Assembly: GCA_016839915.1 (NCBI GenBank) | Contig: JAEOTH010000046.1 | Coordinates: 1-44,515 of the forward strand | DNA length: 44,515 nt | Direction: 5' to 3' | From: Promethearchaeota archaeon | Lineage (GTDB): Archaea > Asgardarchaeota > Lokiarchaeia > Sigyniarchaeales > SOKP01 | Shown: piece after piece, positions 8,692 to 34,227 of the stretch | How the letters are laid out: each line of letters starts with the position of its first letter | Numbering within the stretch: the stretch's first letter is position 1 | Translations under genes and position numbers: made by a program | The notes under the pieces: model-generated | What the model was told of the DNA's origin: nothing | Seen by the model: only the letters and a program-made list of their open reading frames with translations | The model's database searches: none

Positions 8692-9192
8692 TTGAGGAAA
8701 AGAGCTGGGTTAGTACTAGTGGTCATTGGTTTTTCAGGGTTATTTACATTTTTATTAGTCTATTACTGGCCCCCTGCAACTGCTAAATGGGAATATTATA
8801 TTGAATTTGGTATATATACAGCATCAGAAGAAGTACATATAGGAAATGAAACATTTACTTTAGAGACATATATGTGGCGTGATTTTATGCCAGTTACTCC
8901 TCCTGATGGAAAACCTTTAATTGTTATTATAAAAATTCATGCGGTTGGTGTTATGGAATTCCCTTTAACAATAAATGTTGAACGTTTATGGATAATTAAT
9001 GGACTAGAAATAAGTTCAACATTAGCTACAAATGAATATAAAATATATGGTAACACATTTGAGATGGTATTTCGAAATGGTCCAAAATAGGGGCCGGGTA
9101 TTGTTATTGATGTTGTGGTGAAACTAAAAAGCGTGGATTTTAACTCTTACTATTTACTTGCATTAAATCAACCCATTCACAGAACAGACTAA
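8692..9192 (+). CDS. Membrane-anchored beta-rich protein interrupted by in-frame TAG (ORF track ends at 9090)
   Basis: TTG start; N-terminal TM GLVLVVIGFSGLFTFLLVYYWPP. After TAG at 9088-9090 the same frame continues GPGIVIDVVVKLKSVDFNSYYLLALNQPIHRTD to TAA at 9190-9192. Confidence 0.6.
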
Positions 9193-13794: not shown

Positions 13795-14136
13795 CTACAT
13801 CATCTGCTTAAATAACGCTTGGAATTCTTTCTTTACATCAGTTAATCCTAGATTTCCAAGTAGCTCCATTGATTTTTTACTTAGAGAATAAAAAGAGCGA
13901 GGTTCAGAGCGTTTATACCCCATTCTTTTCTCATTTTTAATGAAATCGTTTTCTTTAAGGATTTTAAGATGATAATTTAAGCTATTCTCCGGAACCGATG
14001 GTAAAATTTCCTTCAATCGACTGAATGAGAGAGACTCCTCACTAGCTAATAGAGTGAGTAATATTTTATACCTGGTTTTCTCTGATATAATTTCCAATTC
14101 TTTCCTCATATTTTCAAGTTTTTTAGGAGTGTCCAA
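13795..14136 (-). CDS. ArsR-like winged-helix transcriptional regulator
   Basis: KTRYKILLTLLASEESLSFSRLKEILPSVPENSLNYHLKILKENDFIKNEKRMGYKRSEPRSFYSLS. Confidence 0.8.
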   Translation of the reverse strand: MDTPKKLENMRKELEIISEKTRYKILLTLLASEESLSFSRLKEILPSVPENSLNYHLKILKENDFIKNEKRMGYKRSEPRSFYSLSKKSMELLGNLGLTDVKKEFQALFKQMM

Positions 14137-14212
14137 ATCTTTTACCTCCTATCATTTATATTTAATTTTTCATCTATTTCCATACTAAATACAGATAAGC
14201 ACATATATAAAT

Positions 14213-14236
14213 TTAACTCAAAATCAATTGAGTCAA
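14213..14236. promoter_or_regulatory. Candidate operator dyad between the ArsR-like and Rossmann-like genes
   Basis: TTAACTCA-N8-TGAGTCAA (one mismatch over 8-bp arms), in the divergent intergenic region. Confidence 0.4.
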
Positions 14237-14310
14237 TCACTATTGATATATAATAATTTATAATATAAATCAATTTCTCAATTATTTTATATATTTGTTG
14301 GGAGTAGAGA

Positions 14311-14802
14311 ATGCAAGTTTCACATGATAATGCATGGGAAGATTTTTTAGAAGAATTTATTAATATTTTTTCAGTTTACGATCTGAATAAAAACAAAATC
14401 TTTATATGTGGGTCTTATAGTGAAGATACCTTTATCACTCTTCAGGAAGTACAAAAAATTGTGAATACTATTGAAAATAACCTTGGCTTTTTTGAAAAAG
14501 AATTTAGACGCACCCACCTTGAGAATTTGGTATTAAAATTTGATCTTATTGCAAAATTCTCGAATGAAATCATTATGATTATAGAACATGATAAAGGAGG
14601 CCATATGATTGAAATGGGAATTATCCTTTCCTTTAAAGAATTTTCTGAAAAGACAAAAGTCTTTGTACTAAAAGATGTGGAAATTACTGAAGTCTTAAAA
14701 AGGGGAGGTTTATTGACACCTTTTTTTCGTGAGGAAGAAAGCTTATTTTACTTTGAAAATGTTGAAATGCTAAGATTATATATAAAAAAGTTATATACAT
14801 AA
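14311..14802 (+). CDS. Predicted Rossmann-like protein (TIR/nucleoside deoxyribosyltransferase-like), function unknown
   Basis: KIFICGSYSEDTF ... FSNEIIMIIEHDKGGHMIEMGIILSFKEFSEKTKVFVLKD resembles the strand/E-x-G/strand layout of NDT/TIR-like folds. Confidence 0.4.
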   Translation: MQVSHDNAWEDFLEEFINIFSVYDLNKNKIFICGSYSEDTFITLQEVQKIVNTIENNLGFFEKEFRRTHLENLVLKFDLIAKFSNEIIMIIEHDKGGHMIEMGIILSFKEFSEKTKVFVLKDVEITEVLKRGGLLTPFFREEESLFYFENVEMLRLYIKKLYT

Positions 14803-30000: not shown

Positions 30001-30795
30001 ATGTTTAAAAAACCAGATATCAAACTTCTACAGGAAATTTTGATGAATTCATGGCCAGCACATCATTATTACTTTTTACATGGGTGGATCTTGCGCTTTA
30101 CTCGGGGAGTGACATCGCGCGCTAATTCAGTTTTCCCTCTACATTATATTGGAAATATGAACGTAGTTGATGGAGATATTAAATTTGTTGAAAAAGCGTA
30201 TACTGCTTATAAATTACCTGCAATCTTTACTCTTCCCGAGTATTTTGAACCAGTTAATTTGGATATAAAATTATTGGAGCATGGATATCAGAAATTAGGT
30301 TGTACCACATATACAATGACAGCATCTGTTCGAGAATTAATAAATAAAACTATTAATGAGGAATTCAAATATAATCTTTACACAGATCGAGTAAATAAAG
30401 TTTCAAATTTTTTAGCACACTATTCTCAAAGAGATCAGAACGCACAGAATGTATTAGATGCACTCTCTAATAGAATCATTATTCCACAAAAACGTTTTAT
30501 TGTAGTGGAGTATGATAATATTATCGTAGGAACTCTTATGGGAATTTTAGAACCGCGTGGATTTTTATATATCGTTGATGTGTTCGTACATCCAGATTTT
30601 CGACGCCAAAAAATTGCCACTTCAATGCTTTTTAAAATTATTAAAGAAGGGGAGCTCCTAAATGAAGTTAAAACAATTTGGTTACAAGTGGAAATAGAAA
30701 ATAATGAAGCTATGAATTTATATACTAAAATTGGGTTCAAAAAAGCCTACAGTTATTATTACCTTGAGAAGAGTTTGGAACAAATTAATAAATAG
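30001..30795 (+). CDS. GNAT family N-acetyltransferase
   Basis: FLYIVDVFVHPDFRRQKIATSMLFKIIKEG...WLQVEIENNEAMNLYTKIGFKKAYSYYYLEK. Confidence 0.88.
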   Translation: MFKKPDIKLLQEILMNSWPAHHYYFLHGWILRFTRGVTSRANSVFPLHYIGNMNVVDGDIKFVEKAYTAYKLPAIFTLPEYFEPVNLDIKLLEHGYQKLGCTTYTMTASVRELINKTINEEFKYNLYTDRVNKVSNFLAHYSQRDQNAQNVLDALSNRIIIPQKRFIVVEYDNIIVGTLMGILEPRGFLYIVDVFVHPDFRRQKIATSMLFKIIKEGELLNEVKTIWLQVEIENNEAMNLYTKIGFKKAYSYYYLEKSLEQINK

Positions 30796-33342: not shown

Positions 33343-34227
33343 ATGTCCTTACAAAAAGTCACTGCAAGAGATATTATAGAGAAGAAGAAAAAAGGTGAAA
33401 AAATAGTTACTATTACATCCTATGACTATTCATTTGCAAAAATTGTTGACGAGAGTGAAATTGATCTAATTCTTGTAGGAGATTCATTATCAATGGTTAT
33501 GCTTGGTTATTCAAACACTTTATCAGTTACGATGGATGAGATGATACATCATACTAAAGCAGTTAGCCGAGGTGTGTCAAATGCATTAATTGTTGGAGAT
33601 ATGCCGTTTCTCTCGTATAAAATAGATAATCTAGAAGCCGTTAAAAATGCAGGAAGGTTTATTCAAGAAGGTGGTGCTGAAGCTGTTAAGGTTGAAGGAG
33701 GAACAGAAATTATTCCAACAATTAAAGCAATGATTGATGCAGATATTCAAGTTATGGGTCATATCGGGTTAACACCACAAGCAATTTATCAATTTGGGGG
33801 CTTTTTAGTCCAAGGGAAAACAATCGAAGCAGCAAAAAAATTGATTTTAGATGCTAAAAATTTAGAAGAAGCAGGAGTGTTTTCAATAGTTTTAGAAAGC
33901 ATTCCTTGGCAAATAGCTAAATTAATTACTAATAGTGTTAACGTCCCTACTATTGGTATTGGTGCTGGACCTTATTGCGATGGGCAAATATTGGTAATTC
34001 ATGATATGTTAGGCATCTTTACAGACATTAAACCCAAATTTCTTAAATACTTTGGCAATATCGGTGAAGCCATTCGGAGTGCCTTGAATGATTATAAGGA
34101 TGAGGTTATAAATGGAATATATCCTGATCGTGAACATTCATATGAATTTCAACAACAAGAATTAAATAAACTCAACAAATGGGTTGAAAATGTTGATATA
34201 TGTGAAGAAGCTCATAAACTACTTTAG
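33343..34227 (+). CDS. panB: 3-methyl-2-oxobutanoate hydroxymethyltransferase (ketopantoate)
   Basis: [94 protein letters not shown] at 33343 preferred over TTG at 33316. Confidence 0.95.

Follow-up and report, generated by a model that had tools for sequence, protein, structure and literature searches.

Recoding of UAG as Pyl, described in methylotrophic methanogens and in Sifarchaeia/Borrarchaeia, places an in-frame TAG between conserved sequence on both sides; in known proteins, Pyl is found mainly in the active sites of methylamine methyltransferases and not in the place of a structural Trp. Among the Asgard archaea, Pyl has been placed only in Sifarchaeia, in which the Pyl users have 21% UAG stops, and tRNA-Pyl-like sequences that occur without the Pyl gene cluster in some Lokiarchaeia have been called probable remnants (PMC9723677). 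Recoding of UGA as selenocysteine (Sec), with which we compare HdrA of the same genome below, likewise puts an in-frame stop inside a conserved protein; however, the Sec system reads TGA at a conserved Cys with tRNA-Sec and does not read TAG. Single-lesion nonsense pseudogenes of prokaryotes (fresh amber alleles) carry a premature stop at a conserved sense codon in an otherwise intact frame, within a host gene that is dispensable and patchily distributed.

The window, by which we mean the whole stretch of 44,515 nucleotides analysed here, contains a frame that shares with the Pyl systems an in-frame TAG and conservation on both sides of it. Unlike those systems, its genome yielded no PylS, PylD or tRNA-Pyl, all of its relatives carry Trp at the position of the TAG, and the protein is not a methylamine methyltransferase. 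From fresh amber alleles we observed no difference. The frame opens with a TTG codon at 8692, a start common to two Lokiarchaeial relatives (L040 and L051), and runs for 132 codons to the TAG at 9088-9090; the same frame then continues for 33 further codons to a TAA at 9190-9192, and its translation revealed no second lesion. These coordinates, both stops and the translation had been given in a sequence-only reading of the window and were confirmed. The features of the locus are as follows.

8692..9192, + strand: ancestral frame of 166 codons plus TAA, membrane-anchored beta-sandwich protein, with one TAG inside (translation; relatives L040, L041, L042, L051 and 15 others)
8692..9087, + strand: translated part, 132 aa, with an N-terminal hydrophobic helix (residues 2-25) and the first sandwich strands (ORF list; AlphaFold model)
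9088..9090, + strand: premature TAG, codon 133, Trp in all 19 relatives (alignment of relatives; TGG where checked by codon)
9091..9189, + strand: 33 codons left untranslated, predicted to form the last two beta strands, conserved like the upstream part (homology; AlphaFold model)

When 58 genomes were searched, relatives turned up in four others, each without a stop at the TAG position; scanning GTDB genomes yielded 19 relatives, some of which are the same loci. Their hosts are Lokiarchaeia, the cyanobacteria Symploca and Oscillatoria, WOR-3, Caldithrix, Gemmatimonadetes, Ignavibacteriales, Aminicenantes, Lentisphaerae, Bacteroidales, one gammaproteobacterium and Eisenbacteria. The sequence-only reading had explained the stop by a single TGG to TAG change and had suggested aligning homologs across it. 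The alignment bore the explanation out: the column holds Trp in 19/19 relatives, inside GPKW or a similar motif, and TGG encodes it in the four Asgard relatives from the 58-genome search that were aligned codon by codon. All 19 continue past this column to a comparable C-terminus, and none of the 19 ends at ...NGPK. The window extension aligns with the C-terminal part of the relatives down to the same final residue ('...IHRTD'). A stop that falls on an invariant Trp column, followed by an extension that aligns to the C-terminus of the relatives, shows that the extension is real coding sequence, as judged by homology and not by length.

The AlphaFold model of the protein (mean pLDDT 90.7) consists of an N-terminal helix (residues 2-25) and a beta-sandwich, of which the segment after the TAG forms the last two strands (residues 138-146 and 152-165), in keeping with the earlier impression that the extension resembles the end of such a sandwich. 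Pfam and NCBIfam hold no model for the family, a sequence comparison found no relative in the PDB, and we found no viral relatives; a fold search returned only generic Ig-like sandwiches (best E 1.3e-3, with low TM-scores). The motifs LETYxWRDFMP and GPKWGPG, a mostly conserved C-terminal RTD and an N-terminal anchor, which is a TM helix in Lokiarchaeia and a lipobox-like Cys in many bacterial members, are features of the family as a whole, whereas truncation before the last two strands is found in the window copy alone. The gene at 8692-9192 and the loci L040-L058 belong to a conserved family without a name that extends from Lokiarchaeia to cyanobacteria and several further bacterial phyla, and many of the bacterial members look like lipoproteins. 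Since a lipobox-like Cys lies near the N-terminus in many bacterial relatives, the family looks like one of anchored, extracytoplasmic proteins, and the most that we would commit to is that they act at the cell surface in a structural or binding capacity. The recognition of this anchored beta-sandwich family, spread over Lokiarchaeia and several bacterial phyla, is a useful by-product of the analysis.

We determined stop usage from the window and 20 other stretches of the same genome (359 kb in total), which is AT-rich (29% GC). TAG was the stop of 43 of the 249 long ORFs (17%), and wholesale reassignment of TAG was rejected on this ground, in agreement with the sequence-only reading, which had called it unlikely and had pointed to two ordinary TAG stops in the window; PanB does end in TAG (34225-34227), as does the ORF at 30001-30795, the GNAT gene (stop at 30793-30795). 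Among ORFs of at least 120 aa in the 359 kb, an open extension of at least 34 codons followed 5 of the 43 that end in TAG (12%), compared with 7% for TAA and 17.5% for TGA, and there was no TAG-specific excess over the other stops. Because such open stretches are not rare in an AT-rich genome, the length and texture of an extension are by themselves weak proof of coding. The earlier description of this extension as protein-like thus held with regard to coding, by way of homology; the argument from length and texture was insufficient by itself, since 12% of TAG-ending ORFs have an extension of this kind.

Identity to the nearest relative was 68% before the TAG and 70% after it (33 codons), and dN/dS against the same relative was approximately 0.38 upstream and approximately 0.35 downstream. 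Of the columns that are the same in at least 17 of the 19 relatives, the window gene keeps 13/13 upstream and 5/5 downstream of the TAG. The remainder after the TAG is without measurable decay, a comparison to which 33 codons lend limited power. Equal conservation on both sides, with no violated column, suggests that the stop must be young relative to the splits between the compared genomes, or else not real; a consensus error or rare suppression would likewise give conservation after the stop.

The gene is held by 5 of the 65 genomes of the taxonomic family and by 3 of the 19 genomes of the genus, absence being the common state across the family's genomes. Because of this patchy distribution, it is plausible that the gene is dispensable and that its loss is tolerated. 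The gene lies in a variable stretch next to conserved neighbours; the two further members of the genus with the gene carry it a few kb from conserved genes that are also present in the window, with no fixed place. No remnant of it was seen beside the conserved neighbour gene in nine relatives that lack the gene and whose surroundings were examined. Two conserved neighbours were mapped in the window.

13795-14136: winged-helix regulator, conserved neighbour
14311-14802: 163-aa protein, conserved neighbour

The regulator and the 163-aa protein, which has no Pfam match, form a pair (13795-14802) conserved in most genus members. The 163-aa protein shows 82-91% identity in most of them, and the genes on either side of the pair are variable, differing from one genome to another.

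These results make a recent, ordinary nonsense allele, caused by one base change in an accessory gene, the very probable explanation. If intact, the gene would encode an Ig-like beta-sandwich protein of approximately 166 aa that lies outside the cytoplasm and is anchored in the membrane by its N-terminus, in which a single base change from TGG to TAG would end translation at residue 132 and remove the invariant Trp together with the last two sandwich strands. Because these elements would be lost, the short product is probably unfolded, degraded and non-functional. We infer that the TAG base is real in the organism and that the change was recent; the allele may stem from a single strain whose variant became fixed in the consensus of the metagenome-assembled genome. 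The probabilities that we attach to this and the following readings are judgements and were not computed.

It is unlikely, with an appreciable residual chance, that the organism has Trp and an intact gene and that the stop is an error of consensus or assembly, the consensus of the metagenome-assembled genome being wrong or having taken the base of a minority strain. Such an error would fit a lesion of one base in a gene that is otherwise undamaged and looks as if it is still under selection both before and after the lesion, and the genome is a draft of 221 contigs with 93.9% completeness and 6.9% contamination. However, the per-base rate of consensus errors in covered draft contigs is as a rule far below the frequency of single-lesion pseudogenes among accessory genes, and the gene has no second disruption elsewhere. 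By itself the locus carries little weight, as one accessory gene that is either broken or mis-called.

Readthrough of the TAG, either programmed or by a suppressor tRNA, would insert Trp, Pyl or another residue and yield the full-length protein; it is compatible with the conserved extension, but we consider it very improbable. The sequence-only reading had listed readthrough among its alternatives, next to a sequencing error and a fresh nonsense allele, and had proposed a search for pylS; the search gave a best PylS match of 24 bits against a cut-off of 178 in a genome that is 94% complete, and a best PylD match of 20 bits against a cut-off of 150, so that both are absent. tRNA genes were sought with RF00005 matches, with ARAGORN allowing introns and with two pattern scans from anticodon to T-arm. 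Neither the tRNA matches nor the pattern scans contained a tRNA with a CUA anticodon, in a draft genome whose inventory of intron-rich tRNAs is incomplete; both CUA scans gave background counts, and the only tRNAs that they matched were Arg(TCT) and Gln(CTG). No stable RNA structure above chance was detected after the TAG (z = +1.4). TAG is also an ordinary stop here, without an excess of extensions, although the 17% of TAG stops is not decisive against Pyl by itself, since the Pyl-using Sifarchaeia have 21% UAG stops (PMC9723677). Taken together, these data lend no support to the Pyl alternative; a small probability of readthrough stays open because of the tRNA-Pyl sequences reported in some Lokiarchaeia (PMC9723677). 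In its more specific form, readthrough is a slightly fainter prospect still: a suppressor tRNA of the Lokiarchaeon, such as a tRNA-Pyl-like CUA tRNA that was retained and is now charged by a canonical synthetase, would insert an amino acid at this TAG and keep the gene functional in a genome that otherwise uses TAG as a stop. Readthrough, if true, would bear on these orphan tRNA-Pyl sequences.

Many tRNA genes of this genome (loci L013-L038) have introns, some apparently outside the anticodon loop, and because of this the standard tRNA calls for the genome are incomplete or mislabelled. A 'tRNA-Stop(tta)' called by ARAGORN in intron mode at L018 was read instead as a tRNA-Glu(CTC) with its intron outside the anticodon loop. 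The 'tRNA-Pyl' calls of a permissive ARAGORN run were discarded as noise, as every isotype was called across each locus.

That the 132-aa product is a functional short protein, the stop being a neutral or adaptive C-terminal truncation, is hardly credible: its upstream part is conserved (68% identity), but none of the other relatives stops at this point, the truncation takes away the invariant Trp as well as two predicted sandwich strands, and the undecayed remainder has left no time for independent retention to show.

Sec use is known for Lokiarchaeia, and the same genome offers a positive control for real recoding. The HdrA gene (L072:13108-14877, contig C207) has an in-frame TGA in the sequence DDCSI-TGA-ILGP, which aligns with a Cys of solved HdrA in the motif DDCSxCIL, and a tRNA-Sec gene is present in the genome (L031). 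Because the TGA stands exactly at this conserved Cys and a tRNA-Sec gene is at hand, HdrA is most likely a selenocysteine-containing protein. At the window site a TAG stands in a Trp column, which does not fit Sec recoding. The two loci provide a useful contrast, within one genome, between true recoding and a plain nonsense lesion.
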